Shown: piece by piece, positions 10,583 to 62,605 of the stretch
Numbering within the stretch: position 1 is the stretch's first letter
Layout: each line of letters starts with the position of its first letter
Assembly: GCA_951828515.1 (NCBI GenBank)
Contig: OX639992.1
Span: forward strand, 2,076,008 to 2,140,007
DNA from: an uncultured Poribacteria bacterium
Lineage (GTDB): Bacteria; Poribacteria; WGA-4E; WGA-3G
Length of the DNA stretch: 64,000 nucleotides
Direction of reading: 5' to 3'
Translations under genes and position numbers: made by a program
The notes under the pieces: generated by a model
What the model saw: only the letters and a program-made list of their open reading frames with translations
Databases searched by the model: none
Told to the model about the DNA's origin: nothing

Positions 10583-12025
10583 TTACACCTCAACACGTAC
10601 AAAGGCGAGGTACGCACCCGACAGAAGCACCACAACGAACAACGCCAACAGCAGGATCTCTATTGCCCTGGCATTGAAGTCTTTACGGAGGCTGAGCGTG
10701 TCTTCAAACCTCGGAACTGCCGCTGGATTGACAGGTGTCTGTGACATGCCCTCACGAATACCTATGATATGAAGGCTTTCAGGGTCACCGCTATCGGTGT
10801 CAACGATGAATTCACGGAATTGTCGGGCGTAACGTTGCGTATTCTCCACAAATTGCAAATGTCGGTCAAACCCCGTTCCAGCAAACGCTTCAATGAGGTG
10901 CTGCAGCAGTGTGGCGGGTGAGATGCTGGTGATGGCACGGGCGCGGTGTACCTGAGAAGCCCGATACTTTAATCGTTCTACGCGCCAGCGTTCGGACCTT
11001 TCAACGTGTTCGGTGTAAAAACCGCTTTTCGCTCTCAACGTCTCTTCGTCGGATTTCTCCGACCAGAGCCGATTCCCGTATTTATCCCATAAATCCTCTT
11101 GCGCTGGGTTCCGCTGCTTCCAAAATTCATCAAAGGACCTGGCAGGCGAGAAACTACTTGCAATTGAAGCGAGGGTGCTGGGCATAAAAACGACGAAAGT
11201 TACCCACGTCAAAAGAAGTATCATCAGACTCACCACGCTCCGTCGCACACGCGTAGAGACCAACAGCCCTAACGCCAAAAAAAGACTCGTGTATAAAAGC
11301 GCGAGACAGAAAATGATACCTAAGCGTCCCCACGCTTCTGTCGTCAAGTGAACAGTATTTGCAGTAGAAATCAGTAAAAGGTTCACCAACACAGCAAGTA
11401 TAAACGGGATGCTAATACTGAGCAATGCCCCTAAGAACTTGCCGATAAGGACAGTGTGTCGCGGAATTGAATTTGCTAACATCAATCGGAGGGTGCCGCG
11501 CTCACGTTCACCAGAGACAGCATCAAAGGTAAACAAAATGGCTATCAAACTCAAGACGTAACCGATGATGAATGCCCAATCTACTTGTGAAACATCCGGT
11601 CCAACGTCCCTATTCTGAAGGTTGGCATCTGGATAGGACAGGGACCAGATACCGTGCAGTACTACCTTTTCTTCGTATGAATTGGACACGCCTATTGTCC
11701 CGAACACAATGGGTTCGTCCACTTCGACCGTATCAGGTAAAATCGGTTCACTTCCATTTGCACAGAAGTGAAGGGGAGAAGGTTTTTTGTAGAAATTTCC
11801 CGGTCCGTGTTGTGTCAGTTTATAGAGGCTGTCGTCGGCGCGATCCGTTAAGTGGTTCAAAGATTCGGTGACAGCACTTTGATACCTCTGTATCCGTTTT
11901 GGATACTCTCGGAGATGCCTAACAGCATTGGTTACCATCAGTGCCAGCAACAACACGATTGTTAGAGCAAATCGGAGGCTATGGAGATTATCGTAGATTT
12001 CACGCTTTGTGATATGCCAAATCAT
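10583..12025 (-). CDS. ABC-2 type transporter permease, type A copy 3
   Basis: 480 residues from the ATG at 12025, which reproduces the family N terminus MIWHITKREIYDNLHSLRF. The open frame extends nine codons further upstream, but that part is a dispersed repeat and aligns with nothing in the sister genes. It carries the A-type markers HGPGNFYKKPSPLHFCANGSEPILP, SGERERGTLRLMLANSIPRHTVLIGKF, and the HRARAITSISPATLLQHLIEAFAGTGF segment, and ends VRVEV. Its N-terminal soluble loop has an insertion relative to copies 1 and 2 (around VDEPIVFGTIGVSNSYEEK). Upstream, the gap to the B-type gene 12198-13727 is filled by a family A repeat. Confidence 0.85.
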   Translation of the reverse strand: MIWHITKREIYDNLHSLRFALTIVLLLALMVTNAVRHLREYPKRIQRYQSAVTESLNHLTDRADDSLYKLTQHGPGNFYKKPSPLHFCANGSEPILPDTVEVDEPIVFGTIGVSNSYEEKVVLHGIWSLSYPDANLQNRDVGPDVSQVDWAFIIGYVLSLIAILFTFDAVSGERERGTLRLMLANSIPRHTVLIGKFLGALLSISIPFILAVLVNLLLISTANTVHLTTEAWGRLGIIFCLALLYTSLFLALGLLVSTRVRRSVVSLMILLLTWVTFVVFMPSTLASIASSFSPARSFDEFWKQRNPAQEDLWDKYGNRLWSEKSDEETLRAKSGFYTEHVERSERWRVERLKYRASQVHRARAITSISPATLLQHLIEAFAGTGFDRHLQFVENTQRYARQFREFIVDTDSGDPESLHIIGIREGMSQTPVNPAAVPRFEDTLSLRKDFNARAIEILLLALFVVVLLSGAYLAFVRVEV

Positions 12026-55281: not shown

Positions 55282-56724
55282 TCAAGTTCGCGCGGGCCGC
55301 TTCCGTAGCCTTTTCATCCATCTTTGTGCCTTCGTGATGTTGGTGTCAAACGGTTCTTTCATCTCAAAATATTCCGTATGTCCTGCATATATTTGATGCC
55401 AATCAACAATACAAGGCATCCGATTTTGGGTGAGGGTACGCATCAGGAATGACCGAACTTTGGCACGCGTATCTTGCGGGGCATTGTCCACGGCGTGCTG
55501 AATATGTTCATCGGTGACAACTCTTTGCATCTGACCCTGTTCCTGAAGGGCATAGTAAAGTCCACTCTCCGTATGGATGTTATGATATTCTAAGTCTTGA
55601 CTTTTAATCCAAGAATCTTCCCAATCCAATTTCTCTTCATCAATGAAAGCTTCCAGTAACCATTTTTTTGCCGCCCAATCGACGCGATCAATAACATTTA
55701 ACCAATCATCTTCGAGTTCATCAAGAATAGACTCCCATGCCGCAAGTACCCATTCGGTCTCTTCGTCCCGTTCGGTAATCAAAGCCTGAACGAAGTTAAG
55801 ATACTCTCTCTGTAAATCAACAGCAGAGATTGTCTTTCCGGATTTCAGCTCGACGCGCCACGTGAAGGTATTATCGCGCGAGATGTGTCGAATCGCGTAG
55901 ACTGGATCCGCGAGTTCAAAGCCCGGGAGTGGCAATTTTTCGCCATGCATCTCGTGGAATGTTTCAATAGCAGAAAGCAAGAGTGCAGTGGTGCCGACCT
56001 TCAACGCGGTTGCGTATTCCGACATATTGGAATCCCCAACGAGAAGATGGAGGCGGCGGTATTTGGTGTAATCGCTGAGTGGTTCGTCTCGTGTATTGAT
56101 GATTGCGCGGCTGAACTGGATCCATTCATAAATCTCAGTGACGATGTGATCGGCACGCTGTGAAATCTGATAGTACTGTTGCTCACCAAGTTCATCTTGA
56201 AAATCGCCGAATTCAATCATTTCATCATACGCCCCGACTCTGCCCGCCCCTGCGTAAATTTGGCGTGTAACGAAGAAAGGCATCAGCGTCGGAATAACAA
56301 CACGGTAAAAGGGAACGTCTCGACTGATTTGGAAGTTTTCATGACATCCAAAGGTTGCCCCCGTAAAATGATCGATATTGTTTTTGAAGAAAGCCGTAGG
56401 CAACCCTGTATCCGTAAGGATACCGTTGATGACATGTTCAATGGCTTTATCGTAAGCGATAAGGTCAAAGAGTGTACCACATTCGGGCGTAGCGTACTCC
56501 AAATGTCCCATATCAATGTAGAGACGCCCCCCATTGAATAGGAACCCGCCGTTACCAGGAGGTTCGCCCCAGTCTCGATAGTGAATATCCCGAAGACCGA
56601 GTTCCAACACATCGAAGACATAGTCGCGTACGCGCGCCGCAACTCCCTCAGAGGTGCCACGAATCCGTTCGGCATCCGTCATGCATCCGAATTCAGTTTC
56701 GATTCCAAAAATTCTTTTGTCCAT
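55282..56724 (-). CDS. pafA: PafA-like Pup/UBact ligase
   Basis: 480 residues, glutamine-synthetase-like fold of the Pup ligase/deamidase family. It starts RIFGIETEFGC (nucleotide-site motif), followed by FNGGRLYIDMGHLEYATPEC with the catalytic Asp at about 71, FFKNNIDHFTGATFGCHENFQ, VTRQIYAGAGRVG, INTRDEPLSDYTKYRRLHLLVGDSNMSEYATALKVGT, and a C-terminal VDWHQIYAGHTEYFEMKEPFD. The long Dop-loop insertion is missing, so it is the ligase rather than the depupylase. It should join the C-terminal Glu of the UBact protein to lysines of target proteins using ATP. Last gene of the proteasome cluster. The start is preceded by CCGCAAGGTAAAATTAAAAA, which comes from a dispersed repeat. Confidence 0.9.
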   Translation of the reverse strand: MDKRIFGIETEFGCMTDAERIRGTSEGVAARVRDYVFDVLELGLRDIHYRDWGEPPGNGGFLFNGGRLYIDMGHLEYATPECGTLFDLIAYDKAIEHVINGILTDTGLPTAFFKNNIDHFTGATFGCHENFQISRDVPFYRVVIPTLMPFFVTRQIYAGAGRVGAYDEMIEFGDFQDELGEQQYYQISQRADHIVTEIYEWIQFSRAIINTRDEPLSDYTKYRRLHLLVGDSNMSEYATALKVGTTALLLSAIETFHEMHGEKLPLPGFELADPVYAIRHISRDNTFTWRVELKSGKTISAVDLQREYLNFVQALITERDEETEWVLAAWESILDELEDDWLNVIDRVDWAAKKWLLEAFIDEEKLDWEDSWIKSQDLEYHNIHTESGLYYALQEQGQMQRVVTDEHIQHAVDNAPQDTRAKVRSFLMRTLTQNRMPCIVDWHQIYAGHTEYFEMKEPFDTNITKAQRWMKRLRKRPART

Positions 56725-56725
56725 T

Positions 56726-56815
56726 TTTTAATTTTACCTTGCGGAGGAACAGCCTGCGTTTGGACTCCGACGTGCGTTTCTCATATCCGCCTGCGCCGTT
56801 GTTGCAGGCTACGGA
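56726..56815. repeat. Family B element providing the pafA ribosome-binding site
   Basis: The plus strand reads TTTTTTAATTTTACCTTGCGGAGG..., so on the minus strand CCGCAAGGTAAAATTAAAAA directly precedes the pafA ATG. It continues to a GCCTGCGCCGTTGTTGCAGGC hairpin, as in the copy behind purB (33063-33165). Confidence 0.75.
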
Positions 56816-57112
56816 TCTGGGACTCACGAACATCTCTTTACCGATAACTGACAACCGATAACCGATAACCAACTGCCAATTTTACCTTGTGGAGGAACGA
56901 CGCGGTTTGGAAGTTGAAGGGTTTCGCTCAAATCTGAAGAAATACCCCGCTGATTCTCACTGCAAGGCAACACGCGCAAATGTAATACAAGGAACGGATT
57001 TAGTCTATCCGTAGACTAAATCCAGTCTATTCCCAGACTAAATCCAGCGTTGATTCGCAAAAACCCCTCCATTTCATTACGGGCTTGCGCAATATAATAC
57101 AAGGAAAAGAAA
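56816..57112. other. Gap between prcA and pafA
   Basis: No gene is seen. It contains family A fragments (56838-56875), a partial family B copy (56878-56900), the inverted repeat GGATTTAGTCT-atccg-TAGACTAAATCC (56997-57024) followed by another AGTCTATTCCCAGACTAAATCC half, and two copies of an ATAATACAAGGAA-like string (near 56985 and 57095). Confidence 0.6.
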
Positions 57113-57883
57113 TTATGGGAGGGCGGCTTCAATTTCCTGAGAGGTTAAGAGACGAAACTTACCCGTACCGCGCTGTGTGATTTCCAAAATCCCAGCTTCA
57201 ATCTCACCGTCTTCCCGTGCGGTATCAATAATTTCGTGCATCTGCGCGGTATCTATCTGGGTCTCCTCCGATTCAGCCTCCTCCGGTTCCCGTGAACTTA
57301 ATTCTTTACCAACCGCCCACGCTTCTAAACCTAATTGGAGCGCAGCGGTTAAATCTCTGTCGGTATCTGTAGAAGCAGTAGCGAGATAGTTTTGCATTCC
57401 CGTCTCGATTGCTTCTGTACCGCCGATAACAGTAGAGGTTGTTTCTGTTCGGACATTGCCGTCATAGTTGATACAGGTAAAACGGTTTTTATCATCAGTG
57501 CTGCCGAGTTCGGCAAGCAACATTTTGATGATATACGCTTCACCAACAATGGACTCAAAAGCCTGCTTGAAGGTATGTGCTAAAACAAAGTTCGTGAGTC
57601 GGTGTAGATTTACATCTTCGGTAGCATTTTGAAAACCTTGGACACTGGCGGTGTCAGTAACAAGCATTCGGAGACGCTCAATATCGGCAGGGTGTCCGAT
57701 TGCGGAGAGCGCGATTCGGTCATGCACCTCAAAAATTTTGCGTTGCCCTCTCCCAATAGTGAGTAGCACCATGCCTTCGTCATAGGTAAGCCCTACAACA
57801 GGACTCCCAACCCGGAGTTGGTCTTCAATGTAATCTCGTCGGTCCTGGATCGCCTCTATCCAACGATACGGTTCATCTCGCAT
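57113..57883 (-). CDS. prcA: Proteasome alpha subunit
   Basis: 256 residues, similar to actinobacterial PrcA (about 250). The alpha-subunit pattern is visible: an N-terminal gate helix region (YRWIEAIQDRRDYIEDQLRVGSPVVGLTYDEGMVLLTIGRG), IFEVHDRIALSAIGHPADIERLRMLVTDTASVQGF, then FTCINYDGNVRTETTSTVIGG. There is no N-terminal active-site Thr; alpha rings are non-catalytic and gate substrate entry to the beta chamber. A Glu/Ser-rich insertion (EPEEAESEETQ) separates the last helices. The start directly follows the repeated CGCAAGGTAAAATTAAAAA leader. The gap to the upstream prcB is about 210 bp and holds family B repeats. Confidence 0.9.
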   Translation of the reverse strand: MRDEPYRWIEAIQDRRDYIEDQLRVGSPVVGLTYDEGMVLLTIGRGQRKIFEVHDRIALSAIGHPADIERLRMLVTDTASVQGFQNATEDVNLHRLTNFVLAHTFKQAFESIVGEAYIIKMLLAELGSTDDKNRFTCINYDGNVRTETTSTVIGGTEAIETGMQNYLATASTDTDRDLTAALQLGLEAWAVGKELSSREPEEAESEETQIDTAQMHEIIDTAREDGEIEAGILEITQRGTGKFRLLTSQEIEAALP

Positions 57884-57892
57884 TTTTTAATT

Positions 57893-57990
57893 TTACCTTG
57901 CGGTTTTTTAATTTTACCTTGCGATTAAACATGGCGGGTTTGAACTTTGACATCCCGTTCTGAAATCCGCTCTCCATTTCATTACGAGCT
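57893..57990. repeat. Family B element upstream of prcA (tandem double head)
   Basis: TTTTACCTTGCGGTTTTTTAATTTTACCTTGCG shows two head-to-tail copies of the leader block. On the minus strand the proximal one supplies AAGGT before the prcA ATG. Confidence 0.7.
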
Positions 57991-58097
57991 ACGGGCTTTG
58001 GACGAAGAAGCAGGAAACCATAAATTAAAAACTTCGTGGTTTTAAGGTCCTACGCGGTTTCTATAATATACCTTAGAAACTCAGTATAGACGCGAGA

Positions 58098-58949
58098 CTA
58101 AACTGTCTCTGCGTCTGGCTGTGCTTCAGCGTAACATGCCTTCAACTCATCATCGGCAATATCTTCAACGCCGGTGCTTGTCACAGTCTTGATATTTGGA
58201 AAAATCTCTGCCTGTGCGTTGTAACCGCTTGTCGCGGCATCGTACTCGCTCGCCGTGTCCAAGAGGCGTAGGATATTAATGGTTGCTTGTTGCACATCCA
58301 TCTCCTGTAAAGGCGCATCACCAAACCGAGAGAGATAGCGCAAGACACCGCGGATCCAGATAGAGCCGGAACCGGTCGTGGCAAAATTGACGTTTTCAAA
58401 GTGTGCACCGAGTGCATCATAGAAGAAAATTTTTCCGCCATTCTCGTCATCAGCGGCATTCAAATCGTAGAGGGCAAAGATTGGGATAACGCCTCCGATG
58501 CCTTGAAGTGCCATCGGTAGATTCTCCCGGATGAGTCGCGACAACATTCGGAGCTTGCCTTCAAGACTCAACTCTTGGAGCTGGCTGCGACGAAAGTATT
58601 GAAACGAGTGCTCCAATATTCTGGCGATTTCATAAGCGATTGCGGGTGAACCTGAAATAGCGAGTACGGAATGCTTATCAATCTGCAAAACTTTCTCTGC
58701 CCGATCATAGATAACAGAAGTGCCCGCGGTAGCACGCCGGTCCCCCGCGATCATAACTCCATCTCGGTAACGAACAGCGACAACAGTTGTACTGTGCGCT
58801 ATCTCAATGTCACCCCCGTGCTTTGTCGTTTCCGACGGCAAATCTATTTTCAACGGATAGTTTGCGTGTTTTAAAAGGCTTAGGAAGTCACCTTTATGGT
58901 TGATAACTCCCACACCTGAAGGAGTGAGGTTCTTTGGTTCTTGATTCAT
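58098..58949 (-). CDS. prcB: Proteasome beta subunit (catalytic)
   Basis: 283 residues if translation starts at the ATG at 58949; a GTG one codon earlier (58952) is also possible. The sequence has a propeptide of about 53 residues followed by HS/TTVVAVRYRDGVMIAGDRRAT. After autocleavage the first Thr of TTVV becomes the N-terminal nucleophile, and GDRRAT carries the conserved Asp and Arg; the Lys expected near mature position 33 is in AEKVLQID. Further family blocks are LAISGSPAIAYEIARILEH and FATTGSGSIWIRGVLRYL. It should degrade proteins tagged with UBact and unfolded by the ARC ATPase. The start overlaps the UBact stop codon (TGATG), so tag and protease are translationally coupled. Confidence 0.92.
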   Translation of the reverse strand: MNQEPKNLTPSGVGVINHKGDFLSLLKHANYPLKIDLPSETTKHGGDIEIAHSTTVVAVRYRDGVMIAGDRRATAGTSVIYDRAEKVLQIDKHSVLAISGSPAIAYEIARILEHSFQYFRRSQLQELSLEGKLRMLSRLIRENLPMALQGIGGVIPIFALYDLNAADDENGGKIFFYDALGAHFENVNFATTGSGSIWIRGVLRYLSRFGDAPLQEMDVQQATINILRLLDTASEYDAATSGYNAQAEIFPNIKTVTSTGVEDIADDELKACYAEAQPDAETV

Positions 58950-59146
58950 CACTCTCCCGTTCTTTGGCGGTAACGTCTGGACTGATCTTTGTCAACACGG
59001 CGCATCCGTTTGAGCAGTTCTTGCGTATCGGGCCGACTGACTTTCTGTCGCTTTGGTCCCTCACTATCACCATCGCCATCACCAGGGCCGATGGGTTTGG
59101 TATCTCTTTGCTTACGTTCAAGCTGAGCAATCATTTTGGCTGTCAT
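58949..59146 (-). CDS. UBact/Pup-like protein tag ending in Arg-Thr-Gly-Glu
   Basis: 65 residues, highly charged and predicted disordered (GPGDGDGDSEGPKRQ). The C-terminal half, RPDTQELLKRMRRVDKDQSRRYRQRTGE, has the helical Mpa-binding pattern of Pup proteins and the R-(T/S)-G-E end of UBact. Unlike mycobacterial Pup (GGQ), the last residue is already Glu, so no deamidation is needed before ligation. An AAGGAGATACACA ribosome-binding site lies 15 bp after the dop stop, and the stop overlaps the prcB start. The tag is joined by PafA to lysine side chains of substrates and delivers them to the proteasome. Confidence 0.9.
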   Translation of the reverse strand: MTAKMIAQLERKQRDTKPIGPGDGDGDSEGPKRQKVSRPDTQELLKRMRRVDKDQSRRYRQRTGE

Positions 59147-59161
59147 TGTGTATCTCCTTTT

Positions 59162-60676
59162 TTATAGAGGCAACTTTTCAATGAGCGTCTCAACATTTGG
59201 TGATTGATCAAGTACCTCGTTATATTGACGTGCGATCGCTGCATCCGCGAGAGCGTTCAGATTGATTTCGCGGGTACGCCCGTTTACAGTGAAGGTAATA
59301 CTATCCCACTGGATAGCCTTTATAGAGCTGCTGAACCGATCTACAGCGCGTCCCCGGAAGTATGCCCGTGTATCGGCAGGCGGATTATGGAGCGCAGCAT
59401 CAATTTGTTCATCCGTGACGAGGCGCCGCATCGGAATCCCATAGTATAGCCCTTCATCGAGATCAATGTTGTGATATTCTAAATCCAAACTTTGGAGCCA
59501 CGGGTCATCCCATTCGACGCCCTCTTCCGCAGCGAACGTCTCAAGCAACCATTTCTTCGCGACCCAATCAAGTCGATCCGTGAGTAACATTGGATCCGCC
59601 TCAAGTACGTTGAGGGTATCTTCCCACTCGGTGAGCACCCAGTCAGTTTCAAGTCCTGCAGTTTCACCGAGATGCTTCTGTGCAAGTGCGAGGTACTCAC
59701 GCTGATGGTCAATAGCAGACATCGCTTTCCCTTCTGCCGTCATTACCATCCAACGATACGTTTGGTCATGTGATACAGTTTTGATGGTATCAATCGGGTT
59801 GACGAGTACTAAACTCTCTGGAATCCTCTGCTGTTCAATCAAGGCAATCACGAGTGCCGTTGTGCCGACCTTGAGTGCCGTTGCGTATTCGGACATATTT
59901 GCATCCCCAGCGATGCCGTGCAATCGACGGTATTTGGATGCATCCGCGTGCGGTTCATCTCGCGTGTTGACGATAGGACGATTGTGCATCGTATCCACAC
60001 TCGCCTCGACGTGAAAGAAATCGGATCGTTGGGACAACTGATAGTGTCCTGGGGTTGCGAGTCCAGCTTCTGTTTCAATGCCGATTTTTCCTGCGCCTGC
60101 GAAGATTTGGCGTGTGATAAAGAACGGCATGATACCTTGCTTGAGCGTTTCAAAGGGTACTTCGCGTGCCATCAGATAGTTATCGTGGCACCCGTAACTA
60201 TGCCCATGGAAATCAGTATTATTCTTGTATAAAAGCACCCGTTTTCCGAGTTTCTCGCTGCGTGTTTCGGCACACCGTTGAAGGATACGTTCGCCGGCTT
60301 TATCGTGTGCGACGAGGTCAAAGAGGCTACTGCATTCAGGCGTTGAATACTCTGGATGTGCGTGGTCGTTGTAGAGCCGGGCGCCATTGGCAAGGATGTG
60401 ATCGCTCTTGATCTCAGCGAAAGAGAGCCGTTCTTTAATATTGCGTTTCCGATCGCGCTTTTCCTCTTCCTTCTCATCCGGATGATTGGAAAGCGTGTTC
60501 GCTCGAAAGCCGCGTTCATCCCGAAACGGATCTTCGCCGCGGTAGTCCCACACAGGTCGAAAATCTTCTTGTCGGTAACTTTTTACCAACTCAATTGACT
60601 GCTTGACAGCATCAAGGTGCGCTTCATTTTCGAGTGTTATTCCGTATTCAGTTTCGATTCCAAAAAGTCTTTCCAT
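59162..60676 (-). CDS. dop: Dop-like depupylase/deamidase
   Basis: 504 residues. Same superfamily as PafA but with the Dop-specific loop: VWDYRGEDPFRDERGFRANTL followed by a charged insertion to about residue 92, then NGARLYNDHAHPEYSTPEC with the catalytic Asp at 104. Further matches are YKNNTDFHGHSYGCHDNYLM, SQRSDFFHVEA, INTRDEPHADASKYRRLHGIAGDANMSEYATALKVGT and the C-terminal PADTRAYFRGRAVDRFSSSIKAIQWDSITF. Because the tag already ends in Glu, the likely role is removal of UBact from substrates (depupylation) rather than deamidation. Upstream, a family A repeat separates it from the ATPase gene. Confidence 0.9.
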   Translation of the reverse strand: MERLFGIETEYGITLENEAHLDAVKQSIELVKSYRQEDFRPVWDYRGEDPFRDERGFRANTLSNHPDEKEEEKRDRKRNIKERLSFAEIKSDHILANGARLYNDHAHPEYSTPECSSLFDLVAHDKAGERILQRCAETRSEKLGKRVLLYKNNTDFHGHSYGCHDNYLMAREVPFETLKQGIMPFFITRQIFAGAGKIGIETEAGLATPGHYQLSQRSDFFHVEASVDTMHNRPIVNTRDEPHADASKYRRLHGIAGDANMSEYATALKVGTTALVIALIEQQRIPESLVLVNPIDTIKTVSHDQTYRWMVMTAEGKAMSAIDHQREYLALAQKHLGETAGLETDWVLTEWEDTLNVLEADPMLLTDRLDWVAKKWLLETFAAEEGVEWDDPWLQSLDLEYHNIDLDEGLYYGIPMRRLVTDEQIDAALHNPPADTRAYFRGRAVDRFSSSIKAIQWDSITFTVNGRTREINLNALADAAIARQYNEVLDQSPNVETLIEKLPL

Positions 60677-60679
60677 ATT

Positions 60680-60784
60680 TTAAAGCGGTCAGCCATCAGC
60701 GGTCAGCTATCAGCAAAGAGGCAAGCGTGTCGAAAATAGTTATCTCTTTGCTGACTGCCGATAACCGATAGCCGATAGCCATTC
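60680..60784. repeat. Family A palindrome between arc and dop
   Basis: Left arm GCGGTCAGCCATCAGCGGTCAGCTATCAGCAAAGAGG, right arm CTCTTTGCTGACTGCCGATAACCGATAGCC. CAGCAAAGAG and CTCTTTGCTG are perfect inverted repeats. It begins right after the ATPase stop codon and may have replaced its original 3' end. Confidence 0.75.
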
Positions 60785-62605
60785 CTAAATGACGCGTGAT
60801 CCAGAGGCTTTGCGTCGGTCCTGTTTCTCAGACTTGATAGGTGTAACTTTGACGACATTCGCTGGATCATAATCAAGGAGCTTAAGCCAGTCTTCCGTTG
60901 CCTCAGTTGGCGGGAAGATTTCGCTTTCGTGATACTCTGCAGCGAGTGCATCTAACAGGTCAGCACGTGTGATACCACTCTCTTTCTCTGGGTTCTGAAT
61001 CGCACGCTTGAGTGCGGACTCCTTCGCCCGCTGCACAATCGACTCAATAATTGCCCCGCTGCACAGATGTCCTTTATAGAGGATATCGCGTCTGCCACTT
61101 CTGAGAGAAACTTCGAGGAATCGGTTGTCTTCGTCCTCACGGAACATCTCATCAACAGCCTGTGCGATAAGATCTGCAACGGCTTTCTCAGCCGGGATAA
61201 CCTCAGGTGGCGCTTCACCTTCTGCTGTTTCGGTATCGTTCTCTTCATCAAGAAGTGAAGCGATAGGTAGATCGGGGGTGAGGTAAATGCGGAAGATATC
61301 CTTCGCAGCCTCTGCATCTGGACGGGTTACTTTAATTTTCCTATCGATACGTCCTGGACGTAAAATGGCAGGGTCAATCAGGTCAGGACGGTTTGTCGCC
61401 AAGATAATGACGACATCCTGTAGAGATTCGATACCGTCCATCTCCGCACAAAACATCGGGACAAGCGTGTTCGAGATACTATGGGATCTGAGTGCCCGCC
61501 GAGTGCCCAATATCGACTCCGCCTCATCTATAAAGACAAACGCCAGCTTGCCATCGTCTTTTTTCTCACGGGCAATCTGAAAAATCTCTCGCACCTTCCG
61601 TTCAGATTCACCGAGCCACATGTTGAGAATCTCAGGTCCTTTGATATGCAGGAAACAGCTTTCAACGTCCTCGCCGCTTTCCCTGCGGAGGCGTTGGGTT
61701 AAGTTGTAAGCGGTCGCCTTGCCGATGAGCGTTTTTCCACATCCCGGCGGACCGTGGAGGAGGAAGCCTTTCGGAGCACTATACTGGAACCGTTCAAAAA
61801 GTTTAGGATGCAGGATCGGGAGTTCGATGGTGTCCTTAATGCGTTGGATAGTATTGTCAAGCCCGCCGACCTTGGACCATGGTATATTCGGCACTGCCTC
61901 AAGCGCGTAAGCGTCTGTCTCTTGCGAGGCGATATATTCAACGGCAACACGGAAATTGGAGTCAATCCGAACCTCATCACCGGGCTTCAGTTTCATATCT
62001 ACGAGGTCTGTGGAGCGTTCAAGGATGACAGATTGAGCGTTTGGTTCTTGTCCGATACGGAGCCGTCCATCTGGCATAACATCGGCTATTTTCGCAATAG
62101 GACCCGCATCATTGTATCCGAGTTCGCCGACAACGACAAAAGCGTCGTTCAACAGGACACTGAACCCTTTTTTAAGGTCAGCCCCTTCGAGTTCTGGGTC
62201 AACATTTGCGTAGTATTCGGAGCCACCGACGATGACACGGGCAATGTCCTCTTTAGGCAATCCGAGCAAGGTTCCAATCCGATTCGCGGGTGCGGTGAGT
62301 TTCTCAATCTGCTCCTCCATTTCCGCGTGGATACGGAGTGCCTCCTGCTGAATCGAGTGGACTCTCTCTTGAAATTCACCTTCATCGTTGAGAATAGAGC
62401 GACGGAGTTCCATGAGCCAACGGCGGCGCCGGTCATCTACTGGCGTCTCGGTAATAATATGGTGAATTAACTGCAACGAATAGCCAGAACTCATTGCCTC
62501 CTCTTCGGGAGTGAGTTCCTCTTCAAGTTCCTCGTCATCTTCAATAAACAGGTCGTTCCCATCGGGACCTAGACCCGCAGTTTTAGGATTCTTCTTATCG
62601 TACAT
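60785..62605 (-). CDS. arc: Proteasome-associated AAA+ ATPase (ARC/Mpa family)
   Basis: 606 residues, matching ARC/Mpa order: an N-terminal acidic stretch, a coiled coil (about 60-105) that would bind the UBact helix, an OB-fold domain (about 110-225), then one AAA module with Walker A GPPGCGKT (285-292), Walker B FIDEAES (358-364), and NRPDLIDPAILRPGRID. It unfolds tagged substrates and threads them into the 20S core. Mycobacterial Mpa ends in a GQYL motif that docks on the alpha ring; here the end is KASGSRVI, with no penultimate Tyr. First gene of the minus-strand cluster, starting after TGAGGAGACGTTCAA. Confidence 0.92.
   Translation of the reverse strand: MYDKKNPKTAGLGPDGNDLFIEDDEELEEELTPEEEAMSSGYSLQLIHHIITETPVDDRRRRWLMELRRSILNDEGEFQERVHSIQQEALRIHAEMEEQIEKLTAPANRIGTLLGLPKEDIARVIVGGSEYYANVDPELEGADLKKGFSVLLNDAFVVVGELGYNDAGPIAKIADVMPDGRLRIGQEPNAQSVILERSTDLVDMKLKPGDEVRIDSNFRVAVEYIASQETDAYALEAVPNIPWSKVGGLDNTIQRIKDTIELPILHPKLFERFQYSAPKGFLLHGPPGCGKTLIGKATAYNLTQRLRRESGEDVESCFLHIKGPEILNMWLGESERKVREIFQIAREKKDDGKLAFVFIDEAESILGTRRALRSHSISNTLVPMFCAEMDGIESLQDVVIILATNRPDLIDPAILRPGRIDRKIKVTRPDAEAAKDIFRIYLTPDLPIASLLDEENDTETAEGEAPPEVIPAEKAVADLIAQAVDEMFREDEDNRFLEVSLRSGRRDILYKGHLCSGAIIESIVQRAKESALKRAIQNPEKESGITRADLLDALAAEYHESEIFPPTEATEDWLKLLDYDPANVVKVTPIKSEKQDRRKASGSRVI

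Follow-up and report, generated by a model that had tools for sequence, protein, structure and literature searches.

The locus described here raises the question of whether six neighboring genes in an uncultured bacterium of the Poribacteria make up an intact tag-proteasome system and, if they do, whether that system is the only one of its kind in the cell. Well-studied bacterial proteasomes have been described with one tag and one core. The UBact tag was published by Lehmann et al. (2017, BBRC 483:946; cited in PMC12751074), and a 2020 survey placed Dop and PafA chiefly in Actinobacteria and Nitrospirae, with Poribacteria unmentioned (PMC7947786). A search of the open-licence literature turned up no account of two systems in Poribacteria, of the rule for ARC tails described below, or of the split signal in PafA and Dop. 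The genome is a single contig of 5.85 Mb, of which the window, the whole stretch of 64,000 nucleotides that was analyzed, covers positions 2076008-2140007 (G000:C1).

The UBact-proteasome locus

A first-pass annotation of this DNA had described six co-oriented pathway genes in the actinobacterial order arc-dop-tag-prcB-prcA-pafA. All six are present in that order on the minus strand of the window, with open reading frames throughout, and their orthologs are intact in many species at ~50-90% identity. Among named relatives, the most similar loci belong to metagenome-assembled genomes of Candidatus Poribacteria. The ARC/Mpa ATPase (60785..62605; 606 residues, with OB and AAA domains) ends in SRVI and lacks a GQYL/HbYX tail. 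Dop, the predicted UBact-type deconjugase/deamidase (59162..60676; 504 residues), has the Dop-loop and retains the catalytic Asp. The basic, 65-residue UBact tag (58949..59146) ends in RQRTGE, and the 20S proteasome beta subunit PrcB (58098..58952) carries a propeptide. The alpha subunit PrcA (57113..57883) retains the pocket lysine at the position of Mtb K52 and has an N-terminus that differs from that of Pup-type PrcA, and PafA, the predicted UBact ligase (55282..56724; 480 residues), is strongly acidic and without a Dop-loop. The prcB gene has a GTG start with an in-frame ATG just inside, and the tag stop codon TGA shares one base with this ATG, which is the TGATG overlap that had been pointed out earlier.

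HMM searches assigned each of the six proteins, tag included, to the expected family. The ligase-family proteins matched Pup_ligase at 5.7e-167 and 2.1e-135 and the proteasome subunits matched their family at 9.9e-23 and 6.2e-08 (Pfam), while the ARC matched TIGR03689 at 2.3e-134. The tag exceeded the cut-offs of both UBact models (PF20513: 4.3e-18, 65.3 bits, cut-off 27.8; NF033388: 69.1 bits, cut-off 35), and its RTGE terminus was correctly likened to UBact: 48 of 49 UBact tags end in RTGE or RTGQ, the remaining one being a chance reading frame. Pup models gave no match to this tag up to E = 1, and it ends in TGE, not GG[E/Q]. The other window proteins fell below the NCBIfam equivalog cut-offs: PrcA (74 vs. 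139 bits), PrcB (165 vs. 192), ARC (449 vs. 505), PafA (356 vs. 551), and, marginally, Dop (490.5 vs. 492.3).

The catalytic apparatus is conserved. E16, E18, D64, and R207 (Corynebacterium glutamicum PafA numbering) are among the residues invariant in all aligned PafA and Dop sequences. The N-terminal Thr of PrcB that had been read from the window sequence lies in register with D17 and K33 after the propeptide, and T1/D17/K33 are invariant in 79 of 79 PrcB (49/49 UBact-type, 30/30 Pup-type). The lysine at Mtb K52, which we take to be the alpha-ring pocket lysine for the ATPase tail, is likewise found in 77 of 77 PrcA (49/49 UBact-type, 28/28 Pup-type). Which of the two ligase-family genes is dop and which is pafA had also been assigned correctly. 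At the Dop-loop position there are 17 residues in PafA vs. 48-53 in Dop, and the alpha-loop starts with H-I in the ligases of both sets and with F-F in the Dops of both sets; this region is reported to set ligase versus depupylase activity (PMC8599861, PMC7947786). Judged by these features, the window holds a real UBact-proteasome locus that is, by itself, an ordinary member of a known family. The earlier claim of a complete locus stands, but the supposed rarity outside Actinobacteria does not apply to Poribacteria, where UBact is the norm (76 of 85 genomes), or to Nitrospirota (85 of 246 sampled genomes).

A second, Pup-type set in the same chromosome

Two things lift the locus above the ordinary: a second complete set, and evidence that the members of each set match one another and differ from those of the other set. 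Four Pup-ligase family genes are encoded in the genome, two of them ~0.98 Mb from the window, where, out of reach of the first-pass annotation, a second six-gene set (about 1151800-1158945 of G000:C1; 8757-15946 of L035) repeats the order ARC, Dop, tag, PrcB, PrcA, PafA. Its 65-residue tag ends in QRGGQ, matches TIGR03687 (50.6 bits) and PF05639 (58.5 bits), and has the features of a canonical Pup; its ARC ends in GTFL. ARC (714.7 bits), Dop (583), PrcB (291.9), and PrcA (238.9) exceed the Pup-type equivalog cut-offs, and PafA, with 526 bits, falls slightly below its cut-off of 551. That one set arose from the other by a recent duplication in this genome was considered and rejected, since each falls with counterparts of its own type in other phyla. 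With two complete tag sets in one genome, a single cell probably runs two parallel ubiquitin-like disposal systems, UBact and Pup.

Distribution of UBact and Pup

Poribacteria are reportedly in the list of phyla given when UBact was first described. Among 85 Poribacteria genomes, some of whose single-tag members are incomplete, UBact was detected in 76, Pup in 78, and both tags in 71, and most genomes of this phylum set carry four ligase-family genes. Among 246 sampled Nitrospirota genomes, UBact was detected in 85, Pup in 114, and both in 78, an association for which the Fisher value is shaped by common descent in addition to any functional connection. The comparison outside Poribacteria covered 30 UBact-locus genomes of other phyla. 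In 24 of these (Latescibacterota, Gemmatimonadetes, Handelsmanbacteria, Chthoniobacteraceae, and unnamed bacteria) two ligase-family genes were found in each, and a search for Pup detected none, such that these genomes, Chthoniobacter among them, carry UBact only. The other six are Nitrospirota, with four ligase-family genes, and Pup was detected in five of them.

Several departures from the compact cluster were also observed. In several Nitrospirota (L229, L234, L245, L246, L247, L248, L250, and L253), pup lies apart from the dop/prcBA/pafA cluster, with no other member of the set within several kb. In one Poribacteria family (L108-L111; G007, G008, G009, and G011), the UBact cluster consists of tag-prcB-prcA-pafA only, and the UBact-type ARC and Dop do not adjoin it. 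In another poribacterial genome, G006 (L107), the UBact dop and pafA frames are fragmented, through sequencing errors or decay, which accounts in part for its nine ligase-family matches.

Contrast and coherence of the two sets

In every locus examined, each core gene was closest to its own set and never to the other, after a few very weak chance matches to short frames were set aside; the sets are thus coherent modules. They differ markedly in charge. The mean net charge of the tag is +5.2 in UBact vs. -15.3 in Pup, that of PafA is -28.6 vs. +1.5, and that of Dop is -25.4 vs. -14.0. In 16 alignment columns, PafA and Dop of the Pup system are each more positive than either UBact counterpart, the reverse being true of 5, and most of the charge-contrast columns fall at CgPafA 319-393; they include CgPafA 326, 344, 361, 362, 377, and 382. 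A reading of this contrast as specific to the binding groove is weakened by the greater overall acidity of the UBact enzymes, ARC among them.

The sets also differ at the end of the ATPase. The penultimate ARC residue is V, I, or A in 96 of 96 UBact sequences, none of them having an aromatic residue there, and Y or F in 39 of 39 Pup sequences, some genomes being entered twice in these counts. Nearly all Pup sets have an ARC ending in G-x-[Y/F]-[L/F]. Some Nitrospirota UBact ARCs (L218, L219, and others of L263-L270) end in I-E (RTIE, RAIE, or RQIE), not V-I. Insulation between the two sets is probable and would rest on tag charge, on a tag-specific segment that the PafA and Dop of each pair have in common, and on different ARC docking tails.

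A split signal in PafA and Dop

Phylogenetic analysis resolved the four kinds of enzyme (UBact or Pup, PafA or Dop) as four groups. The PafA/Dop tree that the first-pass annotation had proposed as a check recovered UBact PafA and UBact Dop each as one clade (100/100 and 98/92, respectively). Actinobacterial enzymes fell on the Pup side in one tree, and in another the Dop of Acidothermus was weakly placed. Full-length trees, which sort the enzymes by system, unite UBact PafA and UBact Dop (UFB 99-100), and AU tests of a single PafA clade gave p 0.03-0.125. Without alignment columns 455-560, the tree flips to a single PafA clade (96/94). This flip, together with alpha-loop residues that speak for a single origin of the ligases, led us to reject an independent origin of the UBact ligase.

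Site likelihoods localize the conflict. The ~200 residues at CgPafA 215-412 favor grouping by system (+76 log units; permutation p about 0.0002, with columns treated as independent), and sites outside this segment favor grouping by enzyme (-43). Separate trees concur. In a tree of the segment, the UBact enzymes all fall together (100/100), and a single PafA clade is rejected. A tree of the remainder supports PafA as one clade (98/94), subject to a warning about long branches, and there a single UBact clade is rejected (p 0.027). The p-values of these region trees are optimistic because the segment limits were derived from the same data; the sliding likelihood profile involved no preselected segment. 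In the genome under study, UBact PafA and UBact Dop are 51.6% identical within the segment and 32.5% elsewhere, and its two PafAs are 43.1% identical within the segment and 39.5% elsewhere. A first region tree suggested repeated exchange between dop and pafA, lineage by lineage; with wider sampling, one PafA clade was not rejected within either system (p 0.086 and 0.43). On the simplest reading, this segment would hold the surface that binds the tag and would evolve along with it. The alternative is that the split reflects an ancient exchange between the adjoining dop and pafA genes.

Leaders and repeats around both clusters

A short leader, CAAGGTAAAATTAAAAA, lies on the minus strand directly before the start codon of pafA in the window (56725..56741) and, in two copies (57884-57900 and 57905-57921), directly before that of prcA; it also precedes pafA of the second set (G000:C1:1157569-1157585, plus strand). 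The genome has 95 exact copies, compared to none of the reversed control pattern, and in 24 of them, including those at window prcA and pafA and at second-set pafA, an ATG follows within 0-3 bases. The sequence appears to act as a portable leader for ribosome binding. Intergenic gaps of both clusters are filled by short GATAACCGATAACC- and GTCAGC-type repeats (about 56780-56880 and 60690-60790 of the window; about 10590-10680 and 12225-12335 of L035).

Proposed mechanism and alternative explanations

An intact UBact-proteasome system, which shares the cell with its Pup-type counterpart, is probably encoded in the window and most likely operates as follows; its activity, its substrates, and its insulation we infer from sequence. 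The acidic PafA, using ATP, would join the C-terminal Glu of the basic UBact to lysine residues of its targets. UBact already ends in Glu when synthesized and would therefore need no deamidation. Dop would remove UBact from targets, and a ring of the UBact-type ARC would capture the tag, unfold the target, and feed it into the chamber of the PrcA/PrcB 20S core. The Pup-type set would work likewise with its acidic tag, except that Pup ends in Gln here and Dop must then deamidate it first. Delivery to the proteasome is less certain for UBact than in Pup systems, since the UBact ARC is without GQYL, the motif through which Mpa is known to dock to the 20S core (PMC8755798). With the alpha-ring lysine invariant, docking through another tail is possible in UBact systems.

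One alternative is that UBact conjugation works but does not serve chiefly as a degradation signal, with ARC, for want of a GQYL-type tail, acting as an unfoldase or as an aid in tag removal and the 20S core being ungated or working with other partners. Such an arrangement would be consistent with ARC tails that end in V-I or similar and lack an aromatic residue in all 96 UBact sequences, with an N-terminus of UBact PrcA unlike that of the Pup type, and with actinobacteria in which pupylation exists without a proteasome (PMC3511204). It is nonetheless unlikely, given the pocket lysine in 49 of 49 UBact-type PrcA, the catalytic Thr retained in all PrcB, and the clustering of prcB and prcA with tag and ligase in several phyla. 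That the window copy is in decay, or was created by an error of assembly, is far less probable still; while the broken dop and pafA frames in the relative G006 could be taken to hint at this, the six open frames, the single-contig genome, and the intact orthologs at ~50-90% identity largely refute it.

It is also conceivable that the two systems are not insulated and that, through common or mixed 20S particles or through cross-conjugation, they act as a single, redundant system. The sets are alike in design, occupy one cytoplasm, and have identical active sites at the residues tested. Yet tag and ligase charges are opposite between the sets, ARC tails differ, no core gene has been swapped in any locus examined, and both sets are retained in 71 of 85 genomes, which together make a merged system improbable. 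Our fullest proposal is that two insulated tag-proteasome brands coexist in one cell, their identity written in the ~200-residue segment of PafA and Dop, which would follow the tag through co-adaptation or ancient dop/pafA exchange, and in an ARC tail that is aromatic for Pup and aliphatic for UBact, implying a different mode of ATPase-20S docking. This we put forward tentatively, rating it somewhat below an even chance.

Paired sets, retained by most Poribacteria and by some of the Nitrospirota, offer a natural test of partner recognition among tag, ligase, deconjugase, unfoldase, and protease. The pair also occurs in Nitrospira, which makes available an organism nearer to the bench than Poribacteria. 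The ARC tail rule calls into question the need for a penultimate aromatic residue in proteasome docking, and an insulated bacterial tag pair, if true, would be useful for targeted degradation tools.

Comparison with known systems

A genome with two systems has precedent, as a 2012 paper noted such a case (L1/L2) in Leptospirillum ferrooxidans before UBact was named (PMC3511204). That case concerns one species of Nitrospirota, whereas the pairing reported here extends to 71 of 85 Poribacteria and 78 of 246 sampled Nitrospirota. With the UBact system of Lehmann et al. (2017), the window locus has in common the tag family (PF20513/NF033388), the C-terminal R-T-G-E, and the clustering of the tag with PafA, Dop, ARC, PrcB, and PrcA. 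With the actinobacterial Pup-proteasome system of Mycobacterium tuberculosis and C. glutamicum, it shares gene order, enzyme families, catalytic residues, and a 20S core; it differs from that system in a tag that is basic rather than acidic and invisible to Pup models, an ARC without GQYL, an acidic ligase, and a diverged PrcA.
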